A DNA stretch of 39,519 nt, taken from positions 1 to 39,519 of the IMG/VR virus record IMGVR_UViG_3300025120_000168. One strand, given 5' to 3'. Shown one piece after another: positions 5,029-30,951 of this stretch; position 1 is the first letter of the stretch, and the number at the start of each line of letters is the position of its first letter. Source of the stretch: a virus. The translations under genes were made by a program, and so were the position numbers. The notes under the pieces were generated by a model that had not been told where the DNA came from, searched no databases, and worked only from the letters and a program-made list of their open reading frames with translations.

Positions 5029-8000
5029 GTGCCTGTTCAAACTGTATATCTTGCAGATGGGTCTACTGAAACTTTAGACATACCCCCCGGTTCTACTAAG
5101 GAAGATATTGCTCGTCTAGTAAACAGGAAACGAGAGTCTGAATTTGGCTCTGGGCGTTTATTTAGTTTTAGGCCCGATGAAGAAAGAAGAAAGTTAGAGC
5201 AAGATTTAACACGAGCTAGATTTGCTTTAGCGGGCACCAGAGAGACTTCTATAACAGAGGATCTTACGTCTGGTTTTGGTGCAGGATTTGTAGGCACAGG
5301 CGAAACGGCTTCTTTGGGTTTAGCCTCTATACTAGAAGAAGAGGAAGAGCTAGCTGCTAGGGGTAAGATTAAATCTTTCTTTGGAGATCTCACACCCGAA
5401 GGCGGTGATCCCGACACTATAACTTACGGCCTTGGACAAGCATTAGGATCAATAGCAGGTATAGCCGCTCCAATAGCAGCTGCAGCCAAACTACCCTTTA
5501 CAGGTGCTGCAATAGGCACAGGTGCGTTGCTTACTGGTGCGTTAGGTGCTGGTGAAGCGAGTGAAAGAGCTAGAGAAGAAGGCACTACCGAAGAAGAAAG
5601 AAATAAAGCCCGAAACCTCGGCATTTTGGTTGGGTTTACTGAGATCCTGCCCATTTCCCGATTCGTCAAACTTGTCGATATGCCTGCGCTTAACAAGCTG
5701 GTAAACACCTTTGGCCCAGAAAATGTAAATGGTCTAGGCGAACGAGTACGACGAGCCGCTGGAACAGCAGGGTTTGAGGGCGCACAAGAAGTTGTAGCTG
5801 AGTTTTTTCAAAATGCTATTGAAAGTGGGTACAACATAGACCAAGACCTAGCAGAAGGTCTTATACCCGCAGGTGGGTACGGTGCAGGTGCAGGCGGGAT
5901 TGTGCAGGTTGTCGTTGATTTGTTTACCAAAGGACGCCGCATAGGTGACAAGTCTCCAGAACAGATAGAGCAAGAAGCTCCTAATGTAGCTAAAACTACT
6001 GGGCAGATTGTTGACGAAGAAGACTTTGATGCAGCGGGTGACTTAGACGATATAAGTGCTGCGGATTTAAGTAGGGCTGTTGAAGAGCTAACTGGACAAG
6101 CATCAGCACCTACGGCAGTCGATCCAGAGTTACAAAAATTACAATTTTTACGTGGGGTTGTAGGCGACACAGTACAGCCCCGCGCAGCTGATGTGACTCA
6201 AGAGAGCACTGCAGGAGTTGTTGAACGACGAGAACTGCCAAAGATAGAGCCAACTCAGGAAGAGATAGCTGCGCGAGAAGAGAGAAAAGCGCAAGCAAAA
6301 ACACTTACAGGAAGAATAACTGAAGAGGCAAGACAAGATCCGAAAGTAGCCGAAGAGATAGAGACCCTTGGTGTTGCAGGTTTTGTAAGAAAGAAGCAGC
6401 AGGAACTAGGCGAAGACAGATTCTTTCGTATTTATCTATCTGAAGAAGGTGACGTTACACCTAGTGTTGAAGCTGTTGCTGAAGAAACGCGTGCTGAAGA
6501 TGCGCCTATAAACAGGGATGTGCTAGAGACATTGGGACTTACTCCCGGTTCTGCTATAGGTAAGTCACTTCTTGGTAGAGATTTAACCAGACCGGGGCCA
6601 CGGAACGAACTGCAGGAGTATGCAAAAACCGCTAGTGAAGATGCGCAGGCAAAGATAGATGCGGCACTAGAGAACATAAGTGAAAGAAACTTACCTGATG
6701 AAGTCATCATAGATGTGCCCGGTAAGATAAGAGCGGGTATTACTGACAAACAATTAAAAGAAGCAGACTTGAAAAAACTGCGTTCTGGAGAGTTTAAAAA
6801 GTGGTTCAACGAAGCAAAAGAAAGTGGCGAGAAACGAATTGAGAAGACCATCGCTGGTGAGTTTGAAAACCTAGTCGGTGTTGACCCACTTACTGCTGAA
6901 GATAATCAAAAGATACTTAATCTAGTTAAAGAAAAACGTCCCTCCGCTAGAACAAAAGCGGCGGGTACAGACAAAGCTAAGGCTCAAATATTTTTAGGTA
7001 AGATGAGTCGTCCGGTGGATAGTCTGTATCTAGCTCTATCTGACACTACTAACCAGAATATAATTTCAACGAAAGCCCAAAAGGAATTAAGCAAGTCCTC
7101 GGCTACTGTTGCTAAATTTTTTCAAGATACAGGTAAGACTAATGCCGACGCCACGCTTAAATGGGTTGAACAAAACCTATCACCTCAAGCAAGCGAGTGG
7201 TTAAGAGAGACCAAAACTAGCTTAGAAGGCAGAGAAAGCAAAAAATTAAAAGCCGAGTTAGATGCTGTAGGTGTGCCCGAAGGCCAAGAAGCAGGGGTGG
7301 CTACAGAAGAAACAGAGGTAACTCCAGAAGTAACGGAGACAACCACAGAAGAAACAGGGCTAGCTCCAAAAGAATCCTACATAAAAGCCAAAACTAGGAA
7401 GGCACAAGAACCCAGCCCTGTCAGAGATGTTTCTATAGCAGAGTACCAAGCGGATGCTATTAAGAAGCTGAACGATGCTATTAAAAAGGATGGGGACATA
7501 GGTAAAGGTCTTCTGTCTATACCGGACATGATTACGTTTAGAACGCCGTTAGATCCTAAAGCAGAAGCCGCAGTGCGAAGAGGCGATCTAAAAGAGGCTT
7601 TAGAGGTTATCAGGCTCACTGTGCCTGACCCAATGCTAAGACGCGCTGCATCGGTGTTAAGAGACCGTGTTGGGGACGTAAAAGTTCAAGTCATACCTAG
7701 CGATCAGATGACTGAGCTTACTAACAGGGTGATTAGGGATGAGAAGACAAGAGGGCAGTTAGAAGAAAGCCCAGCGGCAGCGATGTACATACCCACTACA
7801 GACAAAGCGCCAGAACTTTCAAATACTGTATTTTTAGACGAGAACAACGGTCTAGCCACAGTCACATTACTGCACGAAGTGACGCACGCAGCTACGTTAA
7901 AAGAGTTATCTAATAAAAACTCACCGCTAACAAAAGAGATAGTAAAGCTCCATAAACGAGCGAAAGAAGAACTAGGCGACTTAGAAGGCACCAGAGATCC

Positions 8001-11000
8001 GTTTGAGTTCGTTGCAGAGGCGTTTAGTAACCCCGCGTTCCAACAAAAACTAGCCCTGTTGCCTGTTGCTAAAGATACAAGAAGTAACTTTCAAAAGTTT
8101 ATAGATACGGTACGGCGTTACTTGTTTGGGTTCCAGCCGAACAAAGAGTCTATGTTGGATAGGACTGATGCAGTGATAGCTAAAATACTGTCGCCTAGCA
8201 GAGCCTCGCTTGACGAAGTTGGCCCTGTCCTGTCTATGGCGGTAACTAACGGCACAGTGGAGAGCATGGTTAAGGGTGCAACTCAAGCATCCAGAATAGC
8301 TGCTAAAGCACAGCAAACTAAACCTACACGAGAGATATACGATAGCGTCATGGGTGCTATGTACTCACTGCCCAAGGCAGGCGGTTTCGCTGCATTCTTT
8401 GGTATGAACAGTCGAATGATGGCACAGGTAGGCACGGGGCTGTTTAACCTGCCTCAGTTTGAACAGCTGCATAAATTGATCGGTAACCAAGAAGGGGAGA
8501 TCAAGAAGCAAACTGACGTAGTAAAAGCTACCGCTAAAAGATTGGGTGAGTGGGAGAAGGCTAACCCCGAATTAGTGCCTACGTTTAATGATCTAGTAAA
8601 CCTAAGCACCATCAAAGGGGTAGATCTTAGAAAGCCAGAGTCAGAGTACAAAGAGGATGCAGACAAGCTAAAGTTCTACAAAGAAAACAAATCTCTCTAC
8701 GAAAGACTGCCCGGAGTAAAAACTCAATACAATGAAGTGTTTACACTGTACGCAAACATATTGGAGTTGATGAAGCAGAACCTCAAAACCCATGTGAATG
8801 AGTTTGTAGAGGACGCTAACACAAAACAAACTTTATCTAACTTGATCGATCAAAAATTATTTGACAGGGCAACCATAGACCCTTACTCCCCTCTTACTCG
8901 TGAGGGTAACTACTGGCTTCAATACAACGTAGGCACTGACGCAGATCCTGTATATCAAACATTCGGTAGCCCAGATGCTAGAAAGAGGTTCATGGCAGCG
9001 TTGAGGCAAGAGCCAGACGTAGATGATGCAAGCATCAAACCATTTGAAAACGTAAACAAATTTGATTTTGACTCGCTACCTCCTAAATCTTGGATAGCAC
9101 AACTTGTTGCTGCGTTGCAGGCACCCAAAGCAGATGGCACAACAACAGACCCGCAAGTAATTAATCAGGTTGTGCAGTTATACATAGAGTCCGTGCCAGA
9201 GTCTTCGTTTGCCAAGTCATTGCAAACTCGTAAGAATCGAGAGGGTTATCAGAGCAGCGTGCTACAGGGCATGAACATACGGGCGTTTGACATGGCCCGC
9301 CAAGCGATAAATACAAAATATACTCGTGAAATATATAGCCTTAAGAGAAGGCTAAAAGAAGAACTAAGAACGAGAGTCGTAAAAGCTAACGAGTTGCGCG
9401 GGTTACCCGCAGATAACCTTGCAGTCAAAGAGTACACCAAACTGTACGGCCCCGTAGACTACAAACTTGGTAAGACCAACGTGCAGCGTTTCAGTGAAAC
9501 TACTGAGTCTTTACTAAATGGCACGTTTGCATGGAGAGCGCAGCAGGCTACAAACCCCACTCGTAATATGTTTGAGAGTTTAGCGGTTGGTGCTAATCAG
9601 CTTACCTTTACGGGCATCATGGGAGTCAACGCATCTTCTGCCCTATTGCAGACCGCTGGTCTGCCTATGATCTTGTTACCTTTCTTAGCAGGTAAAACTA
9701 GTTTCTCAAGAGCGTTTACGGACATGACAGTAGCCACTAAATTATTTAGCGGTAGCGGATTGTCTAGGCAGGTACGTACAGCGGCTGGAGCAGCAACAGA
9801 TATAAAAGAGGCTTACATAGGCGCACCCTCTATAGATAACTATTATGAGGTAGGAGAAGACGGGCAGTATGTAGGCATTAAAAAAGGTTTGGAGCTAAAC
9901 GATGATCCAAACAACCCGTTTTACGTTAGGACAGGAAAAGACGGCAAACCAACTGTCAGCCTTACGCAGAAGCAGTTTGTAGAGGATGTGCAGGGTGTCA
10001 TCAAAGAAGCCGACGACAGAGGGCTGCTAAACAGAACCATACACGGCGAGATGATTGGCCTAGATATATCGGGTCAGAAAGACGTTAAACGATCTGCACA
10101 GTTGTGGAAAGATTTTAACACGTTCATGTCCTACCCATTTCAAATGGGTGACCGTATGCAGAGACAAGTCACTCTTATCTCTGCTTATTTAACAGAAACA
10201 GACAGACTCACAAACTCTCCAAACAAGAGTAAAGGCGAACAGAACCTAACGCAGGAAGAAATTAAACAGCGAGCCATACAAGCGGCCATATCTGACACAG
10301 AACAAACAGGTGGCACAAACCTGTTGGGGCAAGCTGCGCCGATAGCGCAAAGAAACGTCGGGCGTGTAATGATGATGTTTAAATCTTACGGCCTTACCGT
10401 GTACTACCACCAGATAAAACTGATGGCAGACTATATAAACGCTAGGCATAAAGGTGACGAGCAAGCAAAACGCATAGCTCGTAATCAGGTTGCAGGTACT
10501 TTAGCGTCCACTGCAGCGATGTCTGGTGTAGCAGGACTTACGCTTTATGGCGCTGTAGTTGGTTTGTTGGATTTGTTCTTCACTGAGGAAGAAGATGAAA
10601 CTTATGATGCGTTCTTCAGAAAGAATTTAGGAGAAGGGTTTTATAAAGGCGGGGTCAACTACGTCATGGCTCAACTCGGTGTGCCTATAGATGTTTCAGC
10701 CCGAATTGGTTTAGCTAATTTAATTATTAGTAGTAACAGATACAACTTTGATCGGTCTGTAGAAGAAAGCATAGTAGATGCTTTGGGTGGTGCTGCTTGG
10801 TCTACAGCTAGAAGAGTGCAGAGAGGCGTAACTAAGATTGGCGAAGGGGAATACCAGCGAGGTATAGAAGATATACTTCCTGTATCAATGAGCAATATGC
10901 TCAAAGCAGGTCGTTATGCCTCTGAGGGCGCGTTGACCAGAAGGGGTGACCCCATATCCACTGACTTCAATACAGGCACCATCGCCGCTAAGTTCTTTGG

Positions 11001-11352
11001 CTTTGCCCCTGCTGAATACACCAAAGCACAAGAGATAGCTCAAGACGTTAAGCGTATAGACAAAGCGATTAATCGTCAGCGATCTGCGTTACTTAAAAAA
11101 CTTTACGTTATGCAGCGTATCGGTGACATACAAGGAATGATAGAAGTTAGAAGAGACATAAGCGAGTTCAATAGAAAGAATGCGAAGCTAGGGCCAAAAG
11201 TACCTATAACCGAAGAGACCATAAAGAGATCTATAGCGCAACATATGCGCACTTCTGAGCAGATGTTTAACGGTGTGCAGTTAAGTCCTAACGTGCGGGA
11301 TGCATTGAAGCTATTTGCAGAGGCGTATGATAGAGGGCCAGCTTTCTTATAA
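5029..11352 (+). CDS. Giant polyvalent virion protein with zincin motif and PLxRxG motif (2107 aa)
   Basis: The start is GTG, one base after the previous stop, preceded by a purine-rich AGGAATGGGA. Seen in order: an N-terminal domain (VYLADGSTETLDIPPG, residues about 4-19); a hydrophobic Gly/Ala-rich segment (about 138-180); charged helical stretches; a Thr/Glu linker (about 760-785); a zinc-peptidase motif HEVTH (H949, E950, H953) with downstream E993 and E997 in DPFEFVAEAF as candidate third ligands; PLTREG at 1288-1293, a variant of the PLxRFG motif known from very large phage proteins; a second hydrophobic stretch (about 1820-1850); and a basic helical C-terminus. Size, hydrophobic segments and placement fit a DNA-ejection or internal virion protein carried into the cell. 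Peptidase activity is inferred from the motif only. Confidence 0.8.
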   Translation: MPVQTVYLADGSTETLDIPPGSTKEDIARLVNRKRESEFGSGRLFSFRPDEERRKLEQDLTRARFALAGTRETSITEDLTSGFGAGFVGTGETASLGLASILEEEEELAARGKIKSFFGDLTPEGGDPDTITYGLGQALGSIAGIAAPIAAAAKLPFTGAAIGTGALLTGALGAGEASERAREEGTTEEERNKARNLGILVGFTEILPISRFVKLVDMPALNKLVNTFGPENVNGLGERVRRAAGTAGFEGAQEVVAEFFQNAIESGYNIDQDLAEGLIPAGGYGAGAGGIVQVVVDLFTKGRRIGDKSPEQIEQEAPNVAKTTGQIVDEEDFDAAGDLDDISAADLSRAVEELTGQASAPTAVDPELQKLQFLRGVVGDTVQPRAADVTQESTAGVVERRELPKIEPTQEEIAAREERKAQAKTLTGRITEEARQDPKVAEEIETLGVAGFVRKKQQELGEDRFFRIYLSEEGDVTPSVEAVAEETRAEDAPINRDVLETLGLTPGSAIGKSLLGRDLTRPGPRNELQEYAKTASEDAQAKIDAALENISERNLPDEVIIDVPGKIRAGITDKQLKEADLKKLRSGEFKKWFNEAKESGEKRIEKTIAGEFENLVGVDPLTAEDNQKILNLVKEKRPSARTKAAGTDKAKAQIFLGKMSRPVDSLYLALSDTTNQNIISTKAQKELSKSSATVAKFFQDTGKTNADATLKWVEQNLSPQASEWLRETKTSLEGRESKKLKAELDAVGVPEGQEAGVATEETEVTPEVTETTTEETGLAPKESYIKAKTRKAQEPSPVRDVSIAEYQADAIKKLNDAIKKDGDIGKGLLSIPDMITFRTPLDPKAEAAVRRGDLKEALEVIRLTVPDPMLRRAASVLRDRVGDVKVQVIPSDQMTELTNRVIRDEKTRGQLEESPAAAMYIPTTDKAPELSNTVFLDENNGLATVTLLHEVTHAATLKELSNKNSPLTKEIVKLHKRAKEELGDLEGTRDPFEFVAEAFSNPAFQQKLALLPVAKDTRSNFQKFIDTVRRYLFGFQPNKESMLDRTDAVIAKILSPSRASLDEVGPVLSMAVTNGTVESMVKGATQASRIAAKAQQTKPTREIYDSVMGAMYSLPKAGGFAAFFGMNSRMMAQVGTGLFNLPQFEQLHKLIGNQEGEIKKQTDVVKATAKRLGEWEKANPELVPTFNDLVNLSTIKGVDLRKPESEYKEDADKLKFYKENKSLYERLPGVKTQYNEVFTLYANILELMKQNLKTHVNEFVEDANTKQTLSNLIDQKLFDRATIDPYSPLTREGNYWLQYNVGTDADPVYQTFGSPDARKRFMAALRQEPDVDDASIKPFENVNKFDFDSLPPKSWIAQLVAALQAPKADGTTTDPQVINQVVQLYIESVPESSFAKSLQTRKNREGYQSSVLQGMNIRAFDMARQAINTKYTREIYSLKRRLKEELRTRVVKANELRGLPADNLAVKEYTKLYGPVDYKLGKTNVQRFSETTESLLNGTFAWRAQQATNPTRNMFESLAVGANQLTFTGIMGVNASSALLQTAGLPMILLPFLAGKTSFSRAFTDMTVATKLFSGSGLSRQVRTAAGAATDIKEAYIGAPSIDNYYEVGEDGQYVGIKKGLELNDDPNNPFYVRTGKDGKPTVSLTQKQFVEDVQGVIKEADDRGLLNRTIHGEMIGLDISGQKDVKRSAQLWKDFNTFMSYPFQMGDRMQRQVTLISAYLTETDRLTNSPNKSKGEQNLTQEEIKQRAIQAAISDTEQTGGTNLLGQAAPIAQRNVGRVMMMFKSYGLTVYYHQIKLMADYINARHKGDEQAKRIARNQVAGTLASTAAMSGVAGLTLYGAVVGLLDLFFTEEEDETYDAFFRKNLGEGFYKGGVNYVMAQLGVPIDVSARIGLANLIISSNRYNFDRSVEESIVDALGGAAWSTARRVQRGVTKIGEGEYQRGIEDILPVSMSNMLKAGRYASEGALTRRGDPISTDFNTGTIAAKFFGFAPAEYTKAQEIAQDVKRIDKAINRQRSALLKKLYVMQRIGDIQGMIEVRRDISEFNRKNAKLGPKVPITEETIKRSIAQHMRTSEQMFNGVQLSPNVRDALKLFAEAYDRGPAFL

Positions 11353-11430: not shown

Positions 11431-11673
11431 TCACATAGTTCTCCATATTCGTACACCCCTTTTCCCGTCCTCTGTGCGTATCCTAGTCACGGTTTTCCAA
11501 CCCTTAGCTTCGGTTATACGCTTTAAATCTTTTATAGTAAGATCAGTGTCTATACACGGGACGAATACAGATGAGTTAACTACCATAGCGTTCCACAAAA
11601 TGACTATCTTCACTCCATCTGGAGCTAGCTCATCAGTCCTCAATACGCCTTGGTTCTTCTTCATCCTCTTCAT
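11431..11673 (-). CDS. Small basic protein, last gene of the - strand operon
   Basis: The reading frame opens at 11709, but that would overlap the primase-helicase by 77 bases. The ATG at 11673 (or one at 11664) gives about 80 or 77 residues and an overlap of 41 or 32 bases. Neither has a well-placed ribosome-binding site; AGAGG sits directly before the 11664 ATG. The product has a hydrophobic strand (VKIVILWNAMVV), then DLTIKDLKRITEAKGWKTVTRIRTEDGKRGVRIWRTM, an alternating strand/helix pattern with a basic end. No family recognised. It ends 45 bases before the operon terminator. Confidence 0.55.
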   Translation of the reverse strand: MKRMKKNQGVLRTDELAPDGVKIVILWNAMVVNSSVFVPCIDTDLTIKDLKRITEAKGWKTVTRIRTEDGKRGVRIWRTM

Positions 11674-14479
11674 GTTCTGGAGGTGCATCCACAGCGAAGT
11701 TAACAACAATTACGTCACTCGACTTTAATTGTAGCAACGTACCCTTACCTAACCGCACTTTATCTTTCTTACCGTCTAGCTTCTCCATAAACTCCTGTAT
11801 CAAAGAACTGTAGTTTATCTGCTGTTTAGCACACCACTGCCGCAGCGGTTTCGGCAATAGGTAAAGTCTATTTATGTCTGTCTCGTACCTCGCCACTAGC
11901 TGTATTCTTGGGTCTTTGTCTGGGACTATCAAACTGTCCACACCAGTGTCCCGTTGTTTACGCAGATCATCAGTGCTGCGTATCTGTAGTATGTTGTTCC
12001 AGTTTTCGTATATGTAACTGTTCAGTATCTGCTCTGCAGGTACGACCATGTTTTCCGTCATCTCTTTATTGTGAACCAACACCTTTATTATCCAGCGATA
12101 TATTAGTTTGGTGTCGTACTCCAGAAGACCCATCTTGTTGCATATATGCAGAGCGGTCATGGTGCAAGCAGCACCTGCTGACCAGAATCTATTTTTTGCC
12201 GATAGGTCTGCATCCATATCAATCTTCTTCTGAACCTCGCGAAGAAACTCTTTGATCTCATCTAGGTTCTGCATAACGTAACGGACAAATAGCTCACCGG
12301 CAAAACCGTAGTTCTTTTTTATTTCGTGAGAAAAGGCATCTGTTTCAGATTTAGACTGACTACCTGAGAACATCTGCTGTACTTTTACTTCCAATATTCT
12401 TTGTGCCTCTGCTTCTGGTGCCTCTTTAGCACCGCGCACAATCTCTACAAGACTAGCGTTACCGCTAGATACCGCTATAAAGTTCCACGATAGTCCGGTC
12501 ACACGTTCTGCGTTAGCACTGCCCACCATACGCCTACGCTGCTTACCACTAACTATTTGATATGCAAGATCGCTAATAGCGTCTGGATCTTTTTGCATCT
12601 GTGTAAGTTCGTCCATGTACATAGGTAGGTTGTGGTACACCTCACCTCTGTGCATTTTTATGCTATGGGTGTCCTTCTCATACAAAAGAAGTTCCTCTGG
12701 ATCGCCCCATACTGACAGTCCAGCCTCCATAACAGTGGTTTTACCAAACCCTGTACCCCCGCTGTGCAGGTGCATCATTGAGCAGTGTATGGGTAACATC
12801 TCCATTAGAACGGAGCCAAAGCTAGTACCAACAACGTATTGGTGTAACTCAAAGCCCTTTCTGTTGTAGAAATTAATCATCTCCTTCCAATCTTCTAAAG
12901 AGCCTTTTGGCACCATGTGAGGAAAGAGGGCCGCTGTTGTACCAGATGCAGGGTTAAACTCGGTGCGGTCAGCGAAGATCTCTCTGTCGCCTAACACAAA
13001 AGATTTCATATCTTTGCTAGTCCAACCAAATTGTCTATGGGCTTCATCAGCTACAGTTGTGGTCTGCAATTCGTTTACCCACGTAGCTGTATAGCGCATA
13101 AGTTCATCCGGTTTATCTACTACTATGCCGTGCATACTAACAGCTTTGCGGAGTTCTTCACGGGAGGTTACGGACGTTAGCGGCACTGTAAACTCGCGCA
13201 CTCCGTCCCTCGGCAAATGCAGTCTTAGGACTATGGATTCACCCGTCTCAGAATCAACAATACGTTTAACAACGTAGAAGTCGTTGTGGTAAATAAGTTT
13301 TTCGTCAACTGTTCCATCAGGCCCAGATGTACGCACGTACACGCCGCCGTTAGTACCTCTAAAGTAGGGTTTGGGGTACTGCGGTATGTTGTAAACCTGC
13401 AACTGTGAGTTGGGCCGATTCGCCATAGGCGCTTCTACTACGTTATCCGCTTCCTCTGCTTCCACCACTTCTGTACCAAGTGATATGGGGGAACGAACTT
13501 TGTGCCAGTTAGGGCAATGAGGGCATATGTCTGGGTTGTATTCATCAAACTTCGTGCAGAGATACGGCCCTTTTATTAGGTTTACCTTCTCTACGGTCTT
13601 ATCTGGGCTGTAATCAGGGTGCTTCTTTGATATGTGGTGTATGGCTTTATCTGCATCAGAGCAGAACTTGGCTATAGAAAGACCTGCTCTCCACATAGGT
13701 TCAGAACAAGTCTCTTGATGTAACGTCAGCAGTTCTATCTGCTTACACCCGCCCTCTTTCACTTTACTAAGTATGTTCTTAAACTTTGTATCGTTGTTAC
13801 CCATCAGCTTCTGCATTAACGCAGTGTCGGGCTGTATCTTTAACTTGTTCGGCAGCGCCACACTACCTGCACCCAGCAGCTCCGAGAACTTATCGAAGTC
13901 AACTAGGGACGGTGTGTCTACCCCAAATTGCAACACCTGTGTGGGTGGGTCTGTCTTGTAGTTGTGTGTAAGTAATACCCTTAAAACTCTAGCAGCATCG
14001 CTAGTTACCGCTGGGTCAGCGGCGAACTTATGTTCTGCGCAGAGTTGCTTTAATCTCTCTGCTACAGGAAACCAATCCTCTAATATGACAGACTCTTCTA
14101 AGCACCAGTATGCGTGTATACCACGCCCAGAACTTATTATTAAAGGTTTAGGTAGATGAAGCCCTTTGTGAAACTTTCGTAGTTCAGTTAACGCTTCTTT
14201 TTGGTCTACAAAATCTTTAGATGGCCCACAGTCAAGATCTAAGAAAAATGACTGTATGCGACTTACATTGTCTACTCTACGAGATCCACTCTCTTTAAAA
14301 GTTGCTAGTGCGAAGTATGTATCGTAACCGCTGTCGTCAAACTCACGAGCAGCATCAATCAGTTCGTTAATAGATTCATAGAACTGTTGTACCCTTTTAT
14401 CTTGCTTGGGTTTTAAAGCTAAGAGGCAGTACCAACCTTCGCTATGCAGCACTCTCTCTAAAAAATCTTTCGTTTGCAT
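11633..14479 (-). CDS. Primase-helicase: archaeo-eukaryotic-type primase plus DUF927-like ATPase (948 aa)
   Basis: Predicted to prime and unwind DNA at the phage fork. The N-terminal domain has FFLDLDCG (D81, D83) and SSGRGIHAYW (S117 to H122), the DxD and SxGxGxH-like signatures of primase-polymerase proteins. A Cys cluster around CPHCPNW in the middle may bind zinc. The C-terminal half is a superfamily 3/DUF927-like ATPase: Walker A SGGTGFGKTT with K580, and Walker B YMDEL with D623 and E624. The tail is very acidic (EHEEDEEEP). It is the second-last gene of the early operon and is preceded by a structured 107-base gap with no strong ribosome-binding site, which suggests its translation is controlled. 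Family names are from memory; the motifs are seen. Confidence 0.85.
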   Translation of the reverse strand: MQTKDFLERVLHSEGWYCLLALKPKQDKRVQQFYESINELIDAAREFDDSGYDTYFALATFKESGSRRVDNVSRIQSFFLDLDCGPSKDFVDQKEALTELRKFHKGLHLPKPLIISSGRGIHAYWCLEESVILEDWFPVAERLKQLCAEHKFAADPAVTSDAARVLRVLLTHNYKTDPPTQVLQFGVDTPSLVDFDKFSELLGAGSVALPNKLKIQPDTALMQKLMGNNDTKFKNILSKVKEGGCKQIELLTLHQETCSEPMWRAGLSIAKFCSDADKAIHHISKKHPDYSPDKTVEKVNLIKGPYLCTKFDEYNPDICPHCPNWHKVRSPISLGTEVVEAEEADNVVEAPMANRPNSQLQVYNIPQYPKPYFRGTNGGVYVRTSGPDGTVDEKLIYHNDFYVVKRIVDSETGESIVLRLHLPRDGVREFTVPLTSVTSREELRKAVSMHGIVVDKPDELMRYTATWVNELQTTTVADEAHRQFGWTSKDMKSFVLGDREIFADRTEFNPASGTTAALFPHMVPKGSLEDWKEMINFYNRKGFELHQYVVGTSFGSVLMEMLPIHCSMMHLHSGGTGFGKTTVMEAGLSVWGDPEELLLYEKDTHSIKMHRGEVYHNLPMYMDELTQMQKDPDAISDLAYQIVSGKQRRRMVGSANAERVTGLSWNFIAVSSGNASLVEIVRGAKEAPEAEAQRILEVKVQQMFSGSQSKSETDAFSHEIKKNYGFAGELFVRYVMQNLDEIKEFLREVQKKIDMDADLSAKNRFWSAGAACTMTALHICNKMGLLEYDTKLIYRWIIKVLVHNKEMTENMVVPAEQILNSYIYENWNNILQIRSTDDLRKQRDTGVDSLIVPDKDPRIQLVARYETDINRLYLLPKPLRQWCAKQQINYSSLIQEFMEKLDGKKDKVRLGKGTLLQLKSSDVIVVNFAVDAPPEHEEDEEEPRRIED

Positions 14480-14586: not shown

Positions 14587-15282
14587 TTAGTCGTCCCAAT
14601 CTTCAAGAACGTCTGCTATATCTTCTGCCTCTTTCTTTGGCGCAGCAGTCTTCTTAGCTACCTTTTTCGGTTCCTCTACCTCTTCATCCTCAAAAGGATC
14701 TTCTTCAACTTTGGCTGGTTCTTCAACCATACTAAATGGGGTATCGTCACCGAAGGTAAACCCGTCAGTGGCTTCAAATGGCGATACATTCTGCCTCTCT
14801 GCTAGCTTCAATACTTGCACGCTTTTCAACCGCAGAGACACACCAGCACCCATAGATCCGCTATAAGGCACCCCAACAATAGCAATGTTCACAAGACTAC
14901 CTGTGGTTAGTTGGAACTCTTCTGGTAGTTCTTTAACCTTAGCGTCGTACTGTGTGGGTCTTTGGGTCTTTTGCCCGTTGTAAGAACCCTTCAAAGACGC
15001 TTTGTAAGAGAACATTTCATCCTCTTCTTTTTTAAATGCGTTCTTGTACGCGGGCCAGTTCTTCTGCTTCTTCGATTCGTACAGCGTTTTCATAAAAGAA
15101 TGCAGCTCTTTCGCAGCATCTTTATTCATCTTAAAGTTAACAGAGTACTCGGCACCGTCGTCTAAAGAACCACATGGAACACTTCTGTTCTCTGTAGCAC
15201 TCCAGTTGTAGGTGCGGTCAAGTTTCGGGTACATCGCCTCGACGTTACTTACAACGTAGGCAGCAGATACTTCTTCAGACAT
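14587..15282 (-). CDS. Single-stranded DNA-binding protein, T7 gp2.5-like (231 aa)
   Basis: Predicted to coat single-stranded DNA and recruit the polymerase and primase-helicase. The first 150 residues look like a strand-rich OB-type domain (KASLKGSYNGQ, SLVNIAIVGVPYSG, AGVSLRLKSVQVLKLAE). The last 60 residues are acidic with a Lys/Ala interruption and end in ADVLEDWDD, the acidic aromatic tail typical of phage and bacterial SSBs. The length matches T7 gp2.5 (232 residues). The start has a strong site AGGAGAACAAT-ATG, a sequence reused at other genes in this operon. It overlaps the upstream Cys-rich gene by 8 bases. Confidence 0.75.
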   Translation of the reverse strand: MSEEVSAAYVVSNVEAMYPKLDRTYNWSATENRSVPCGSLDDGAEYSVNFKMNKDAAKELHSFMKTLYESKKQKNWPAYKNAFKKEEDEMFSYKASLKGSYNGQKTQRPTQYDAKVKELPEEFQLTTGSLVNIAIVGVPYSGSMGAGVSLRLKSVQVLKLAERQNVSPFEATDGFTFGDDTPFSMVEEPAKVEEDPFEDEEVEEPKKVAKKTAAPKKEAEDIADVLEDWDD

Positions 15283-19503: not shown

Positions 19504-19742
19504 TTCGCTGTTGTCTCGTTTGATGGTTCGTCGTAACGTGGCGCTCTCATCTCACCAACTCGCAAAGCACGCAACTCGACTATAAGCATCGCCATGAGAG
19601 CATTGTCAACTGTCATTGTTTGGTGACCTGAGATTCTCTCAAGTAACATTTCCGCGTCCCATACGAGGTCATCAGCAATCTCTATGCGTGCATTTCGTTC
19701 TTTCTCAAAACGACTATTGTCCAGCTGCATCGTATCTATCAT
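19500..19742 (-). CDS. Small helical protein (80 aa)
   Basis: Largely helical and acidic (FEKERNARIEIADDLVWDAEMLLERI, then VDNALMAMLIVELRALRVGEM). The start ATG overlaps the polymerase stop by 4 bases. No motif of known function is seen. It lies directly after DNA polymerase in the operon, so it may be a polymerase accessory protein, but the evidence is position only. Confidence 0.65.
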   Translation of the reverse strand: MIDTMQLDNSRFEKERNARIEIADDLVWDAEMLLERISGHQTMTVDNALMAMLIVELRALRVGEMRAPRYDEPSNETTAK

Positions 19743-21565
19743 TCACAATCTCCATATGCTTTAGCTACACCAGACTCGCAATCAAGCGGCAGACCATGCG
19801 CCCACGTAGGTACAACACGCATACACTCTTCTATATACGTCCTCGCCTCTTGTGCTTCGTCTTCTTTAACACACACCACTAATGAGTCGTGTACTGTCAA
19901 TACGATCTTGTACTTAGCAGATATGCCTAACATCTGCTCCCCGATTATACATCTTGCTAGTGCCTGACACGCATTCTCTACAAACTTGCCACCGTATATC
20001 TTGGTTCGGCCTTTTCTAGTTTTGTAGGTGTATTCGTACCCACGCTCACCGTTCTGTGCGCGTAGGTCTTCGTAGCGCATGACCAATCCAGAGGGTAGAG
20101 ACACCGCTGATTGGTTCGCCAATGATCGTATTACGTCATGACGGCCAACTCTAGTTGATACTTTGTTGGCTAAATTTTTAATCATAAACTGTGAGTCTCG
20201 CCACAGGCGGCTGATGTTCCCATTAGACTTACGGTATATATCTATGATACGTCTGGCTTCTTCCAAATCAACGTCTACACCAAACGTCTTCAACTGTGCT
20301 TGGAACTTTGCAGATCCCATGCCGTAACCAGCACCAAGTATAGTGGTCTTGCCGACAAATCTTTGGTCTTTATTTATCTGATCTTCTGGCAGGTTATAAA
20401 TACGCGATGCCATCTTGACGTATACATCTTCTTTATCGTTAAACGCCTGTACCAGATCTCCCTGCCCAGCCAACCATGCCAATACCCTTGCTTCAATTTG
20501 AGAAGAGTCACAGTCAATCAAAACACAGTTATCGGGAGCTAGTATGCTTCTCTTTAAATGTTTACCGTCAGGGCCACGACTCGGTAGGTTCTGTAGGTTG
20601 ATCTTGTCCGAACCGCCCCACCTGCCTGTGTGGGCAGCGTAGTACCGAAGCGGAATCGGCAAAGCCCCGCGCTTCGCTATATCTATGAACCGTTGGGTTC
20701 TTGTTTCTTCTAACGTGCTCTTGTTGCCTAGTCGCGCTGCTACTAATACTTGTACTTCATACGATGGGTTTTCTGCTAAAGCTTTGAAGCCATCATCTGT
20801 TTTAGCGAATGCATAGGCTTCTTTGTCTGTAGTGGGACTAACCTTCGTTGGTGGTTCCACCCCGTTCTGCCGTAGCAACTCGGCAAACTTATCATTAGAC
20901 ATTAAATCTTTTTTACTAACCCCTGCCTCAAGCATGAGTTCGTCTTTGCGGTCTTTGACATTTTCTAAATGAGACTCTAGCAACCCAAGGTCTAACTCCA
21001 GCACTGGTTCAGTAAACATACGCAGTGTGGCGTCGATTATCTTTAGTTCTTGTTTAGGAAAGCCCCGCACCATGATGCCAAACAGCTTATAAGTAAGCTC
21101 AACATCGTTGATGCAGTAGTCTCCATAGCGGTCTAATTCATCCTCGGTAAAGTCCCCACGGCGTTTACCTTTAGCGTCTAGCACCTCTGTGCCTTTCTCA
21201 CCGATACCGTACCGCTCTGCAAGCGCCTTGAGACTTCCACCAACCTCGACCCCATGTACAGCCCGCCCAATGCAAAGAGTGTCAGCCCAAACGCGAGGAT
21301 GAATATCAAAGAGCCAAGACAGTATAGCGCCATCGAACATAGTGTTGTGAGCCAGCACCATGCTGTTTGCCCAATCGAACCCATCGAAATACTCTTTAAG
21401 TTCTTCATGTGTACCGCTCGCCCATTCAGTGTCACCGTTGTTAACCTTCACAGATACACCGATGATCTGAAATCTAGGATCTCGTATGTACTCTTCTGTG
21501 GTCAGCTTAGTTAGTGAGAAGTCCTTACTGTAAAAGGTTTCAAAGTCTAGCGTTATAAGATCCAC
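19739..21565 (-). CDS. Family A DNA polymerase with 3'-5' exonuclease domain (608 aa)
   Basis: The replicative polymerase. Exo I motif LDFETF (D7, E9) opens the proofreading domain. Polymerase motif A is CDSSQIEARVLAWL with catalytic D353. Motif B is RFVGKTTILGAGYG with R402, K406 and Y414, the spacing of Pol I (R-x3-K-x7-YG). Motif C is VLTVHDSLVV with D560; the usual Glu after it is Ser561. The length fits small phage polymerases lacking the 5' nuclease. The start is GTG with AAGGGGAG just upstream. It follows a small lipoprotein gene and begins the replication half of the operon. Confidence 0.93.
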   Translation of the reverse strand: MDLITLDFETFYSKDFSLTKLTTEEYIRDPRFQIIGVSVKVNNGDTEWASGTHEELKEYFDGFDWANSMVLAHNTMFDGAILSWLFDIHPRVWADTLCIGRAVHGVEVGGSLKALAERYGIGEKGTEVLDAKGKRRGDFTEDELDRYGDYCINDVELTYKLFGIMVRGFPKQELKIIDATLRMFTEPVLELDLGLLESHLENVKDRKDELMLEAGVSKKDLMSNDKFAELLRQNGVEPPTKVSPTTDKEAYAFAKTDDGFKALAENPSYEVQVLVAARLGNKSTLEETRTQRFIDIAKRGALPIPLRYYAAHTGRWGGSDKINLQNLPSRGPDGKHLKRSILAPDNCVLIDCDSSQIEARVLAWLAGQGDLVQAFNDKEDVYVKMASRIYNLPEDQINKDQRFVGKTTILGAGYGMGSAKFQAQLKTFGVDVDLEEARRIIDIYRKSNGNISRLWRDSQFMIKNLANKVSTRVGRHDVIRSLANQSAVSLPSGLVMRYEDLRAQNGERGYEYTYKTRKGRTKIYGGKFVENACQALARCIIGEQMLGISAKYKIVLTVHDSLVVCVKEDEAQEARTYIEECMRVVPTWAHGLPLDCESGVAKAYGDCE

Positions 21566-23793: not shown

Positions 23794-23820
23794 AAATCAG
23801 GTGTAAATTACACCTGATTT
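23794..23820. promoter_or_regulatory. 27-base perfect palindrome, longest copy of the GGTGTAA-N-TTACACC family
   Basis: Arms of 13 bases (AAATCAGGTGTAA and its complement) flank a single central base. It lies in the gap just upstream of the small gene starting at 23767. The same core recurs at six other places in the window. A protein-binding site (operator) is the simplest reading. Confidence 0.75.
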
Positions 23821-25229: not shown

Positions 25230-26468
25230 TTAAATCTTTGTGTTATCAATGTGTAAGATCCTGCCTGTGTCGGTGTCGAAACCTTTGTTGTTCAACACAC
25301 ACCACAGAACCGGACAGTCCCATCCATTCAATCTACCGTCGATATAACCGTCAGTAAAAACGATTACCGCTTGAGGGCGAATGCCCTGACCGCGCATATA
25401 TGTCGGTACGCAACTCACCCTTGTGCCACCGCCCCCTCTCGGTTTAGTGGTCTTGACAAGATCATCTATCCTCTCGATCTCGTAGGATTCATCACCTGCC
25501 ACCTCGGTATCCCAATATAGAAGGCGAACCTTCTCTGGCCTGACAGATTTACAGATGCCTACGATCTCAGATAAGAACTTGTCGATGTGGCGGTACACCG
25601 AACCAGAGGTATCCGATGCTATGACTAGCTCTTCAACCTTTTCTGATAGCGTGCTAGGCATATAGATGCCCGCGCCGATGTACCTGCGATTAGGTTTCGC
25701 CCATGTGCCGAAGTCTTTACCTGCACAAGTCTGATAAGCAAACTCGCGTAGTGCTTCGAGCCAATCGATCTGTGGCTCAAGCAACTCCCCGATAGAACCC
25801 ATTGCCCCACCCGATCCGAGCTTGCCAGCGGCGATTGCACCCTGACGTAACGCTTGGTCGATCTCAGTGCCCACGCTTTCCTTGGTAGCTTCGTCTATAG
25901 CTTTAGCCCCTTCAAAATCGTGTTCATCAAAACCATTACTCTCGCCCGGCCCGGACTGAGGTTGTTCTGTTCCTGTTGAAGGTTTACTAGAACCACCGTT
26001 ACTGCCCTTGCCCTGACTTTTAAGTGAGTCGTACACCTGTATTACAGTCATGCCACGATACTTCTCGTCGTACAGACCTGCATACTTGCCAGTGGGCATC
26101 GTCGCGAAACCGTCCCTGTTCTCGTCAGATATCTCAAGATTGATAACGAAGTCCAACGACATATTCGTCAGCTTAGGATCTTCTGCCCAGATGTTCTCGT
26201 AGACATCCATGTGCTTGTAGATCTTGTGACGGTTCTCGTGGAGCATGACGAACCGTAGTTCGGGATCAGTTATTTCACTGACCATCGTTCTACTGTACCT
26301 CTCGTTTAGGCCATCAGTCATCGCAGTCGGTAGGTCATCACCGATGCTCTTGTCACCGACCAACAACGTACCTGCGATTTCTGTATACCTCTCGTGAGAG
26401 AAGATCGTGAACGCTGCACGATCCAATCTCTGCTCTTCTGTTTGAGCTTTTACTGATAACGTAACCAT
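25230..26468 (-). CDS. CobT/DUF2201-like protein: HExxH metallopeptidase-like domain plus VWA domain (412 aa)
   Basis: The N-terminal domain contains VMLHENRHKIYKH with H77, E78 and H81, an HExxH zinc motif as in DUF2201-type proteins. A Gly/Ser/Pro/Gln linker follows (about 153-178). The C-terminal half is a VWA-like domain with the metal-binding DTSGS (286-290, MIDAS) and VIVFTDGYIDG. In CobT and related proteins the VWA domain works with a MoxR/CobS AAA+ ring, and here that ATPase is encoded two genes upstream. The start has AAGGAAAAGTAA in front and overlaps the small upstream gene by 19 bases. The substrate of the complex is unknown. Confidence 0.82.
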   Translation of the reverse strand: MVTLSVKAQTEEQRLDRAAFTIFSHERYTEIAGTLLVGDKSIGDDLPTAMTDGLNERYSRTMVSEITDPELRFVMLHENRHKIYKHMDVYENIWAEDPKLTNMSLDFVINLEISDENRDGFATMPTGKYAGLYDEKYRGMTVIQVYDSLKSQGKGSNGGSSKPSTGTEQPQSGPGESNGFDEHDFEGAKAIDEATKESVGTEIDQALRQGAIAAGKLGSGGAMGSIGELLEPQIDWLEALREFAYQTCAGKDFGTWAKPNRRYIGAGIYMPSTLSEKVEELVIASDTSGSVYRHIDKFLSEIVGICKSVRPEKVRLLYWDTEVAGDESYEIERIDDLVKTTKPRGGGGTRVSCVPTYMRGQGIRPQAVIVFTDGYIDGRLNGWDCPVLWCVLNNKGFDTDTGRILHIDNTKI

Positions 26469-26728
26469 TTACTTTTCCTTGCTATAATTATTTGTTGGGC
26501 AACGCTCTCTAGGTTATAAGTCTGTCTTACAAACCCACCCCCAAATTCGTTGCCCCTGTACCTCCTAAAACCTAAACCTTTAGCCATTAGGAACGCTTCG
26601 TCGTAGTCACTGGCAAACGCTAGGAAATGAATCACGTAGCGCGGGTTGCCATACGTATCGTTGTGGACTCTGAAGAAGTCATGTCCCAACTCGGTAGCCA
26701 CTTTGTGGTCAAGATGACACTTATTCAT
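26450..26728 (-). CDS. Small protein between the AAA+ and VWA genes (92 aa)
   Basis: The start ATG follows the AAA+ stop by two bases with AGAGGTAG in front. The sequence begins MNKCHLDHKVATELGHDFFR and contains aromatic strands (YGNPRYVIHFLAFASDYDEA) and RYRGNEFGGGFVRQTY. It is an alpha/beta-looking protein without known motifs. Its place inside the ATPase-VWA pair, with overlap into the VWA gene, suggests an adaptor or regulator of that pair. That is inference. Confidence 0.68.
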   Translation of the reverse strand: MNKCHLDHKVATELGHDFFRVHNDTYGNPRYVIHFLAFASDYDEAFLMAKGLGFRRYRGNEFGGGFVRQTYNLESVAQQIIIARKSKWLRYQ

Positions 26729-26730
26729 AT

Positions 26731-27882
26731 CTACCTCTTATCGCCCATGAACAGCGTTGCGTTGTCACGTACCCAACTAGAGAACTCCTCGGATCTTGTG
26801 ACGATGCGGTTGTGCTTGTAGGTATCTTTCAATGCGCTACGTGCGAACATGGCTTGCGGTTCTTTCGGTAAACGTCTTACGTACTTCATCCACGGATTGA
26901 TTAGCTGTGAATCCATTGCACCCAATACTTTACTGATAGTCATGATGATTGCTGGAGCAGAAGTAGGAACTTCCAAACCCTCTGGATCGCGCTTGATGTC
27001 TTCGATGGAGTGCAGTTGCCCGACCATCGTGACAAACGCCATGAGATCTGCCCCCGCTCTGGCACCGATAGCACCCATGAGTGCAGCTTGCAGTGTGAAC
27101 TTATCCACGTTGCCCTCGCACGTTTGGAGTATGTCCGACGCTGTGTGCAGGGATCTGGGTGTGACAAACGCTGTTCTTAATTCTTTCGGGTGAAAGATGT
27201 AAGGGTTGTCTTGCGGGCTTACGTCCTCAAACGAGTCCATAATCTGTGGATACTCTCTGGCAAACCCTAGAACTGCTGGATGCAGGTCATTGGGTAGTCC
27301 GAAGTTTACGATCCAATCTTTAGCGGTAGGCTTCTGCATCCGCACCGAGATGATGGCGTTACGCTTGTGCGCTTCCATCACATCACCCACGTTCTCTGCC
27401 CCAAGGTTAGTAGTCGCAAATACGATACTGTCCTCGTGCAGTGTGTACGCCCCAATCTTGCGTTCCAACATCAGCCGCCGCAGTGCATTCTGCACCGCCC
27501 GATTACACTTGCCGAATTCGTCCAGCATGATAATCACAGGCTTGTTGGTATGAGCGCCTAGCTCTTCATTGGTAACAAACCGGACAAACTTGCCAGACTT
27601 ATCCACCTCAGATATTACGGGGATCATGATGTCACCGACATCTTTAGTGGTGCAGTCGCAGTAGAACGCAGTGTAGTTCGTGGTGTAATTTACACCTGTA
27701 GTGCTGTCTGACGGCTCGTCGTCGGGTTTCTTCTTTGCATTTAAATTATTGGCGATAATGCTCAAGAGCGACGACTTGCCGGTGCCCATGTGACCTTCGA
27801 CCAATACGGTACGCTTCGGCCCTACGTGTGTGACAAGATCTGCTGTCTGTTCAAGATTCAAATTTAGATGTGCTAAAGCCAT
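26731..27882 (-). CDS. MoxR/CobS-like AAA+ ATPase (383 aa)
   Basis: Predicted hexameric ATPase that remodels a protein or nucleoprotein target together with the VWA protein. Walker A is GHMGTGKSS (G30 to S37, K36) and Walker B is VIIMLDEFGK (D121, E122). FATTNLGAENVGDV is the sensor 1 region, and RMQKPTAKDW plus FVTPRSLHTASDIL give the C-terminal lid. The start has a strong site AGGAGAACAAC-ATG. A GGTGTAA-N-TTACACC palindrome falls inside the coding sequence (27682-27696). CobS-like genes in phages are often labelled cobalamin genes, but nothing else of that pathway is here. Confidence 0.88.
   Translation of the reverse strand: MALAHLNLNLEQTADLVTHVGPKRTVLVEGHMGTGKSSLLSIIANNLNAKKKPDDEPSDSTTGVNYTTNYTAFYCDCTTKDVGDIMIPVISEVDKSGKFVRFVTNEELGAHTNKPVIIMLDEFGKCNRAVQNALRRLMLERKIGAYTLHEDSIVFATTNLGAENVGDVMEAHKRNAIISVRMQKPTAKDWIVNFGLPNDLHPAVLGFAREYPQIMDSFEDVSPQDNPYIFHPKELRTAFVTPRSLHTASDILQTCEGNVDKFTLQAALMGAIGARAGADLMAFVTMVGQLHSIEDIKRDPEGLEVPTSAPAIIMTISKVLGAMDSQLINPWMKYVRRLPKEPQAMFARSALKDTYKHNRIVTRSEEFSSWVRDNATLFMGDKR
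27682..27696. promoter_or_regulatory. Palindrome GGTGTAA-T-TTACACC inside the AAA+ gene
   Basis: Perfect 7-base arms around one base, same core as the copy at 23794-23820. It encodes Gly-Val-Asn-Tyr-Thr in a region between Walker A and B that looks like a variable loop, so the codons may be free to keep the site. Confidence 0.65.
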
Positions 27883-29577: not shown

Positions 29578-29606
29578 ATTATAACATATTTATCAGCTAA
29601 TGTCAA
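29578..29606 (-). promoter_or_regulatory. Consensus sigma70-type promoter of the early operon
   Basis: On the - strand, TTGACA (29606-29601) is followed by exactly 17 bases and then TATAAT (29583-29578). Both hexamers and the spacing are the ideal housekeeping-sigma promoter. The expected start is near 29571, facing the operon that begins at 29545. Heptamer repeats lie 48-84 bases upstream of the -35 box. Confidence 0.88.
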
Positions 29607-29653
29607 GTCGTGGTAAATCAAGTATGTACGTAGTGAATGGTGGTAGGTAGTGT

Positions 29654-30002
29654 ATTGTTCTGTAATGTTCCACAATGTTCCATAATGTTCTAACACGAGG
29701 GCGTGCAAGTCATTGATAAGAAAGGAATGTTCTAATGTTCGAAAAAACAGGGGAATTTATGGGTGTGAGAGAGAATGAGAATCCGCGTTCGTAAGAAGAG
29801 AGAATCTCTAATAATTTCCATACATTTCTGGAAAAACGAACATTATATATATTTTATAAAAAAGTATTAATAATATAATAATAAGTAAGTGTAGACTACA
29901 CTAGATACCATTAGATACTACAAAACAAATGTTCGTTTTGCCCTTTTAAAAAACGAACATTATGCGAACATTATGCGAACATTACCGATTTATGCGAACA
30001 TT
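29654..30002. repeat. Array of AATGTTC / GAACATT heptamers
   Basis: Forward AATGTTC copies start at 29664, 29674, 29684, 29726, 29734 and 29928, with a variant ATTGTTC at 29654. Inverted GAACATT copies start at 29838, 29955, 29966, 29977 and 29996. The first four units are spaced exactly 10 bases; the main inverted set is spaced 11, 11 and 19. The left cluster points one way and the right cluster mostly the other, around an AT-rich core. Spacing near one helical turn suggests cooperative protein binding on one face. No gene is convincing in this stretch. Confidence 0.85.
29811..29900. other. AT-rich core between heptamer arrays, candidate replication origin
   Basis: A hairpin TTTCCA...TGGAAA (29815-29834) is followed by one GAACATT copy and about 45 bases that are almost pure A/T (29842-29887). 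Iterated sites flanking an easily melted segment is the classic layout of an origin. Direct repeats of TAGATAC follow at about 29903 and 29912. Origin function is inferred from layout only. Confidence 0.45.
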
Positions 30003-30024: not shown

Positions 30025-30130
30025 AAATCTTTTGCCGCAACGCTATCTCTTCAACTGGCATCGGAACGCAGTTCTGATAAGCAATCCGCGCAGCGCAGAT
30101 AATTCAACTGGCTTCAATAAATTGAAGGCG

Positions 30131-30160
30131 AAAAAAAAGAGAGAGCCTTTCGACTCTCTC
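30131..30160 (-). terminator. Strong intrinsic terminator after the 30172-30906 gene
   Basis: On the - strand, GAGAGAGTC (30160-30152) pairs with GGCTCTCTC (30147-30139, one G-T pair) around a GAAA tetraloop. Eight T residues (30138-30131) follow. It lies 12 bases after the gene's stop and isolates that gene from the early operon. Confidence 0.93.
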
Positions 30161-30171
30161 CTTTGGGTGGG

Positions 30172-30906
30172 TTAAGATTTCTTTTTGGCTTTCTTCTCTG
30201 GTGTTGCGAACACCCCAGCCTCGATAGCCTCGTCAATCTTATCCAGCAGCTCCTCGCCTACGGTCTGAGATACCGCATCATCCAGATCGCCAATCCATCC
30301 GACCCATAGCTTCCTAGTAGCCTCTGCCTTGTCGCATCTAGTTAATGCTTTCTTGACAGGCTTTTCGATCCCAGCGTCTATGTCTTCCTGCTTTTGAATG
30401 CAGTTGCGAGCATAGGTAACCGAGTCCTTAGCCTTTCTCAGTAGATCTTGAACAGTAGCGGTAGCATTGGTGCCCAGCGCAATCTTGGCTCTGTGCTTGG
30501 TTAGATTGTGTTCTAGTTGGTTTACCTGCTCTTGAATGAAATCGTCACGTTTTTTACCTGTGAGATTTATATCATTAGCATCTAGTTGCGCACCAGCAGT
30601 AGCGTGACCGATATATGCTTCATCTAGTAAAGCATGGTATCGGGCATTTGCTGCCTGACCTTCGACCGATGTTGGCTCTACGCCTAAACCTTTAGCGCCA
30701 ATCATGGATCTAGAAGCATAACCTTGGGCAATGCACATATCCTTAAAAGATTGTGTTGCGCCTTCAGCCAATCCACCAGCGATCCCGACCTGTCGCATTT
30801 GATCTAATATGCTTGAGCTAAACGCCATATTGGAATTAGCAATTGCATAGTCGCGGTCTGTAGTGGGTTTTACTGCTTCCACAATTGCAGTGTTTTCGTT
30901 TGTCAT
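30172..30906 (-). CDS. Unknown protein encoded as a separate - strand transcript (244 aa)
   Basis: The start ATG at 30906 has GGAG seven bases upstream; a longer frame to 30948 lacks a site. The product starts MTNENTAIVEAVKP. It is mostly helical, with a Gly/Ala-rich part (GIAGGLAEGATQSFKDMCIA), a charged middle (NQLEHNLTKHRAKIAL) and an acidic helix ending in a Lys-rich tail (PEKKAKKKS). No known family is recognised. It has its own terminator and sits between the heptamer array and the divergent late promoter region, so it may be expressed at a different time from the early operon. A regulatory or abundant DNA-associated role is possible. Confidence 0.72.
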   Translation of the reverse strand: MTNENTAIVEAVKPTTDRDYAIANSNMAFSSSILDQMRQVGIAGGLAEGATQSFKDMCIAQGYASRSMIGAKGLGVEPTSVEGQAANARYHALLDEAYIGHATAGAQLDANDINLTGKKRDDFIQEQVNQLEHNLTKHRAKIALGTNATATVQDLLRKAKDSVTYARNCIQKQEDIDAGIEKPVKKALTRCDKAEATRKLWVGWIGDLDDAVSQTVGEELLDKIDEAIEAGVFATPEKKAKKKS

Positions 30907-30951
30907 TTCGACACTCCGTAACATTAATGATCTAACACCAAGCGGCATTAG

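Follow-up and report, generated by a model that had tools for sequence, protein, structure and literature searches.

The Rep protein of the staphylococcal islands (SaPI) binds an iteron origin through its C-terminal domain (PMC7581432), and the opposed repeats of SaPI origins load two hexamers (PMC9894130). The C-terminal domain of Cch2, which belongs to another helicase family, binds AAGTG direct repeats (PMC7581432), of which only three are reported, and TcpK of plasmid pCW3 is a winged helix that reads 9-nt tandem repeats by its beta-wing (PMC6137059). Primases of the PrimPol-PV1 supergroup combine with DUF927 and winged-helix domains, and the accessible part of their description gives neither iterons nor evidence of recognition, both of which are supplied by the phage analysed here. 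In phage P4 the alpha protein unites primase, helicase and origin recognition, with the ori and crr repeats in cis; its primase is of the TOPRIM type, whereas the protein studied here carries an AEP PrimPol, and the two are likened by description only. The fusion of primase and helicase in alpha has been reported (PMC7145576).

Here we analyse a repeat array in a virus contig from IMG/VR (IMGVR_UViG_3300025120_000168; 39,519 bases, classed as linear), which is referred to as the window over its full length. We consider it likely that the array is the replication origin of a group of marine phages, and that a 948-aa PrimPol-DUF927 protein binds its iterons via a C-terminal winged helix. By analogy with SaPI, the best reading is that of a bidirectional origin that would be opened by a self-loading, primase-fused helicase. 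The phage protein resembles SaPIBov1 Rep in its DUF927 MCM-like helicase and its C-terminal winged helix, and the repeats are likewise short and opposed, here with an AT-rich core between them. It differs in the fusion of the helicase to an N-terminal PrimPol, and it is carried by a free-standing marine phage, which brings a family A polymerase of its own. The SaPI origin lies directly downstream of rep, whereas the phage array heads the operon, upstream of its promoter and in register with it, and is separated from the initiator gene further down by about 15 kb. The Cch protein of SCCmec has the same helicase and C-terminal fold. TcpK, the third-best fold match of the phage C-terminal domain, differs in being a relaxosome accessory protein that acts at oriT and not a helicase.

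An exact-match count identified eleven copies of AATGTTC/GAACATT spanning positions 29664-30002, while 2000 dinucleotide shuffles of the local 701 bp gave a mean of 0.18 copies and a maximum of 2. AATGTTC is also the most clustered 7-mer in the entire window (11 copies, against 3-4 in shuffled windows). The eleven copies inside 350 bases reported by the initial annotation are therefore far above the shuffled expectation, and the hairpin that it placed near the core was also recovered (12-bp stem, z -5.4 against shuffles). Its description of sets spaced exactly 10 or 11 bases applies to four of the ten intervals, the others being 42, 8, 104, 90, 27 and 19 bp. The opposed orientation of the two sides holds overall, with five plus-strand copies left of the AT-rich core and mostly minus-strand copies on the right, but the right-half copy at 29928 lies on the plus strand. 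The core itself, described as 45 bases of A and T only, is present with a length of 43 bp and is interrupted by one G (22 A/T at 29842-29863, the G, and 20 further A/T up to the next G at 29885). The coordinates of all features are collected in the table. The role of the hairpin may be to present a single-stranded site, or it may be just two opposed iterons. A LexA-like reading of the repeats (GAAC-N7-GAAC) was rejected, since it fits the 11-bp spacings only and fails for spacings of 8, 9 and 10.

Table. Features of the putative origin, the early promoter and the early operon in the window.
Feature	Position	Strand	Remarks
Exact iterons, plus strand	29664, 29674, 29684, 29726, 29734, 29928	+	
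Exact iterons, minus strand	29838, 29955, 29966, 29977, 29996	-	
Degenerate copy ATTGTTC	29654-29660	+	fourth left-arm unit
Left arm, three AATGTTC iterons	29664..29690	+	10-bp spacing
Left-arm iteron pair	29726..29740	+	8 bp apart, 42 bp from preceding iteron
Core-proximal iteron	29838..29844	-	orientation opposed
AT-rich core	29842..29884		presumed DNA unwinding element, 42/43 A/T
Hairpin	29928..29961		12-bp arms containing two opposed iterons (29928 +, 29955 -) 27 bp apart
Right arm, four GAACATT iterons	29955..30002	-	spacings 11, 11, 19
Probable intrinsic terminator of upstream gene 30172-30948	30130..30165	-	GC-containing hairpin, then 8 T
Phased degenerate units between -35 and first exact iteron	29607..29660		10-bp phasing; GTGGTA, GTAGTG, ATTGTTC
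Perfect sigma-70 promoter of leftward early operon	29578..29606	-	12/12 matches
Family A DNA polymerase, early operon	19739..21565	-	
gp2.5-like ssDNA-binding protein, early operon	14587..15282	-	
948-aa PrimPol-DUF927 primase-helicase, proposed initiator	11633..14479	-	
C-terminal winged-helix region, proposed iteron-reading domain	11684..12049	-	residues 811-932; K907, S920, D922 on wing strands

On one side the array region is bounded by the probable terminator of gene 30172-30948, on the other by the perfect minus-strand promoter. The terminator, which has a weak single-strand fold (z -1.9) and is absent from the consensus-scan list, probably insulates the array from that gene. GC skew was set aside as origin evidence: its minimum near 31 kb and its maximum near 11.4 kb both follow gene direction, and because gene direction also changes near the array the skew is uninformative on the origin.

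A search with a three-repeat pattern of 10-bp spacing matched 91 viral contigs, among which those with dense arrays mostly carry genes of the same phage group; the relatives reach lengths of 56-66 kb. The layout, with plus copies on the left and minus copies on the right, recurs in 78 non-redundant arrays. In the 73 arrays that are long enough for the comparison, the left half holds 277 plus and 76 minus sites and the right half 293 minus and 45 plus sites, and the AT-richest 45 bp fall midway along the array (median position, 0.55 of its length). The irregular spacings recur as well: the 42-bp interval of the left arm was observed 48 times, its 8-bp interval 38 times, and the 27-bp spacing of the opposed plus/minus pair on the right 24 times over the 78 arrays. 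Each long genome (18 mapped long relatives and the window) has a single array, always heading the early operon, with a small-terminase candidate on its other side wherever the contig extends that far. The initial annotation had proposed to look for the array at the same place in related phages, and to give up the interpretation if close relatives with the same promoter lacked it; these relatives carry the array or a base-changed equivalent of it.

Outside this group the array was absent from the cultured phages HTVC027P and DSL-LC04 (50 kb examined), which have a TerL of the same kind and a different replication module. HTVC027P, which stands for a group of Pelagibacter phages, has a TerL 46% identical and is annotated with separate primase and helicase. 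Two distant DUF927 phages related through the initiator, Rollin of Pseudomonas and RHph_TM3_14A of Rhizobium, likewise showed no such array (50 kb examined). In bacterial genome assemblies the best match (45%) was to a high-coverage contig of a Rhodobacteraceae MAG, possibly a mis-binned phage. The most repeat-rich origin seen was an expanded array at 6786-6938 of one relative (L157), with 17 copies at 8-, 16- and 24-bp spacings. Synechococcus phage MinM2 (L258) carries about nine TGTCATAC repeats at 42180-42540, upstream of the large terminase gene, in the gap between a possible small terminase gene and a lysin gene. These repeats were rejected as the same element, as they are at a different site, in a single orientation and downstream of the possible small terminase gene; they may be a packaging site.

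The perfect early promoter that had been noted next to the array was confirmed on the minus strand, with TTGACA at 29606-29601, a 17-bp spacer containing TG and TATAAT at 29583-29578. The distance from the -35 to the first exact iteron is 3 mod 10 in 45 of 62 arrays, a regularity partly explained by gain or loss of 10-bp units plus shared ancestry. The distances seen are 23, 33, 43, 53, 63, 73, 83 and 93 bp, with two arrays at 103, and between the two lie degenerate 10-bp units, GTGGTA and AATGTAC among them. Since the register is kept over many lengths, it suggests that bound initiator is coupled with the polymerase, and initiator binding probably also regulates the early promoter. The simplest reading is autorepression by accumulating initiator, although the bound protein may act by activation instead. 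In two contigs (L062 and L060) repeats of the GTGGTA type also precede another promoter-like site, which lies ahead of the next minus-strand gene and has no AATGTT array, so the phased element may be partly promoter-specific.

The same register, together with the degenerate units that reach the -35 of a perfect promoter, would be expected if the array were a transcription control region only, that is, an enhancer or operator on whose phased sites an activator or repressor of the operon, encoded by phage or host, would sit, and helical phasing to the promoter could reflect such a purely transcriptional role. We regard this as unlikely, because the array is about 340 bp long, crosses the AT core and has reversed arms, because the protein that covaries with the repeat (see below) is a replicative primase-helicase and not a regulator, and because operator-like dispersed palindromes exist separately. 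The initial annotation had left the choice as origin, enhancer or both. That reading holds up: the origin is the better-supported part, by one conserved place per genome, by the opposed arms round the AT core and by an initiator-type helicase of the DUF927 family, and the link to the promoter is supported by the helical register.

As for the palindromes, the sequence GGTGTA-N3/4-TACACC occurs in six exact copies in the window (at 23800, 27682, 29342, 30008, 31025 and 38924; none expected), which flank the array on both sides and are also found elsewhere. Several long relatives have a dispersed palindrome of their own, different in sequence, with many copies near the array: ATAAGT..ACTTAT 10 times in G004, TAGCCA.TGGCTA 7-8 times in G107 and G106, GTGTCA..TGACAC 7 times in G010 and TTAGGG.CCCTAA 6 times in G019. 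A repressor that changes fast may use these palindromes as operators or 'stoperators'.

The leftward early operon encodes a family A polymerase, an exonuclease, an SNF2 helicase, a gp2.5-like SSB and the primase-helicase, which was present in all 25 first-set genomes covering the operon. Rep_3, RepA_N, DnaA and lambda O families were not found among 30 window proteins compared with PHROGs and 10 early-region proteins compared with Pfam, a few small operon ORFs lying outside the scan. The operon had been thought to lack an obvious Rep/DnaA-like initiator, so that the binder was left unnamed; this view is not upheld, as the 948-aa protein joins a PrimPol to a SaPI-Rep-like helicase and carries at its C-terminus a winged helix whose variation follows that of the repeat. 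Its DUF927 domain is detected by Pfam (1.3e-18), and among PDB sequences the helicase is matched by 8tch, the SaPI initiator (1.2e-16), and by 5dgk, Cch of SCCmec (1.8e-11). In the AlphaFold model (mean pLDDT 83), residues 365-932 superpose on Cch (Z 30.7) and on SaPIBov1 Rep (Z 27.4), and residues 1-203 on the S-2L PrimPol (Z 19.3). D81, D83 and H122 are invariant in the AEP PrimPol part, and we read the invariant residues K580 and D623/E624 as the putative Walker A and Walker B motifs, respectively. The C-terminal 122 residues modelled alone form a winged helix (mean pLDDT 85) whose best fold matches are the C-termini of Cch (Z 8.3) and SaPIBov1 Rep (Z 8.1), followed by TcpK (7.1). The matches to Cch and SaPIBov1 Rep are modest, with a Foldseek E of about 0.4 and a Z near 8 that is a little above the 4-7 of other winged helices. 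In-frame TGA codons in some primase matches were considered and dismissed, since in the three that were checked they are ordinary stops at the gene end.

Elsewhere in the early operon, a MoxR-like AAA ATPase and a VWA-type protein form a pair (25230-27882) that occurs in all long relatives examined and is also annotated in MinM2. The window also encodes, at 5029-11352, a protein of 2107 aa; over its C-terminal third it matches giant phage proteins, DarB-like antirestriction proteins among them.

Comparison of the arrays showed that the base after AATGTTC is often uniform within one genome (nearly all C, T or G) and that some relatives carry AATGTTAC or AATGTTGC at equivalent places. In the sister pair G107/G106 the origins align almost throughout, but in nearly every iteron, even in a degenerate AATGTAC copy, base 7 is C in G107 and A in G106; the wings of the two proteins differ at residues 905, 906, 912, 920 and 922. 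Since all copies change in concert, the pattern points to one trans-acting reader with shifted specificity.

To compare protein and repeat we used a first set of 25 records with the primase, 24 of them readable at residue 907, and a second set of 19 genomes, which were retrieved via the primase and whose arrays were read only afterwards. In the first set residue 907 is Lys in all AATGTTC genomes and never Lys in AATGTTA/G genomes, and no other column in the 15 proteins is likewise invariant in one repeat class and absent from the other. These first 24 genomes alone would not single out the primase, because columns of other proteins also scored high. In the second set the rule holds in 16 of 19 genomes and is broken by G076 (N907 with C7) and by G106 and G111 (K907 with A7), so residue 907 alone does not set specificity, and the simple rule was kept as a tendency only. 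The second set also suggested that base 8 is followed by residue 922, with Asp beside G or T and His, Trp, Asn, Ser or Arg beside C. Among 4361 columns of 13 operon proteins in 43 genomes, residue 922 is the top predictor of this base (leave-one-out R2 0.67; next 0.55). Residue 920 scores 0.53 for base 7 in the 43 genomes, below column 126 of g228 (0.66), a protein present in only 26 of them. Label shuffles within the primase (n=60) reached a maximum of 0.46 for base 8, and of 0.54 for base 7, which is as high as the observed 0.53.

To evaluate concordance we used a tree from which the C-terminal domain had been left out. Base 8 is concordant with residue 922 in 40 of 43 genomes, and of 8 independent changes about 7 agree, with none opposite (p 0.016); this rule was formed after seeing the data, and the all-column ranking and the independent-pairs test serve as its controls. 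Residue 907 and base 7 also agree in 40 of 43 genomes, with three exceptions, and independent changes are 5 to 0 (p 0.06). Residue 922 alone does not set specificity either, as indicated by G115 (D922 with C8), and the exceptional G076 combines N907 with R922 beside its C7 array. From these sequence comparisons we regard the covariation as good evidence for base 8 and as suggestive for base 7. Residues 907, 920 and 922 are located on two wing strands of the predicted model, a position that would fit direct base reading. Taken over the 43 related phages, the covariation suggests that the C-terminal end of the fused primase-helicase reads the repeats.

An origin read by another protein would also account for the array, and two early-operon candidates and a host factor were weighed, a reading that we hold to be quite improbable. 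The 82-aa HTH_17 protein (HTH82) is a MerR-like DNA-binding protein of the early operon, and g228 has the column with the higher score for base 7 given above. HTH82 was rejected, since it is absent from 4 of 25 first-set genomes and from distant array-bearing relatives, and its recognition helix STTRKW is identical across repeat classes (A-class G001 and C-class G003). g228 was rejected as well, being absent from 4 of 25 first-set genomes and from 17 of 43, and with a host factor as reader it would be left unexplained why the repeats change along with a protein of the phage. That the array serves packaging or partition is very improbable: in relatives it has the genes of both terminase subunits, small and large, nearby, and covariation alone does not argue against such a role because one TerL column reached 0.89 for base 7 (TerL and TerS columns were compared in the first set only, 19 genomes), but HTVC027P and DSL-LC04 have TerL of the same kind with another replication module and no array.

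The interpretation that we favour, an origin read by the primase-helicase, can be put as a sequence of steps. The leftward early operon would express the 948-aa protein, whose C-terminal winged helix would bind the iterons, with the wing reading the last repeat bases. Because of the opposed orientation of the arms, one helicase ring would form on each side of the AT-rich core, the two placed head to head, and this double hexamer would melt the core and then move apart as bidirectional forks, while the fused PrimPol would make the primers that start new strands. Accumulating initiator would then fill the weak 10-bp-phased sites beside the -35 and regulate the early promoter.

If this is so, the analysis supplies both initiator and origin for a large uncultured group of marine phages, and extends the SaPI type of origin, with its opposed iterons, beyond the staphylococcal islands to phages in which a PrimPol is fused to the helicase. 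Knowing where the origin lies would make replication readable from metagenome coverage. The covariation of wing and repeat across 43 phages makes a protein-DNA recognition code testable, and the natural series of paired repeat and protein variants would allow a direct test of how a self-loading helicase recognizes its site. A phage nuclease that cuts the iterons of a satellite is known (PMC8263062). More tentatively, iteron and initiator wing may have switched together several times within the group under recurrent selection to change recognition, a lock-and-key turnover that perhaps allows escape from origin-targeting nucleases, or from satellites or co-infecting relatives that make use of the origin, with residues 907, 920 and 922 as a readable code for bases 7 and 8. 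If true, such switching of origin specificity in the phage itself would bear on the arms races between phages and their parasites.
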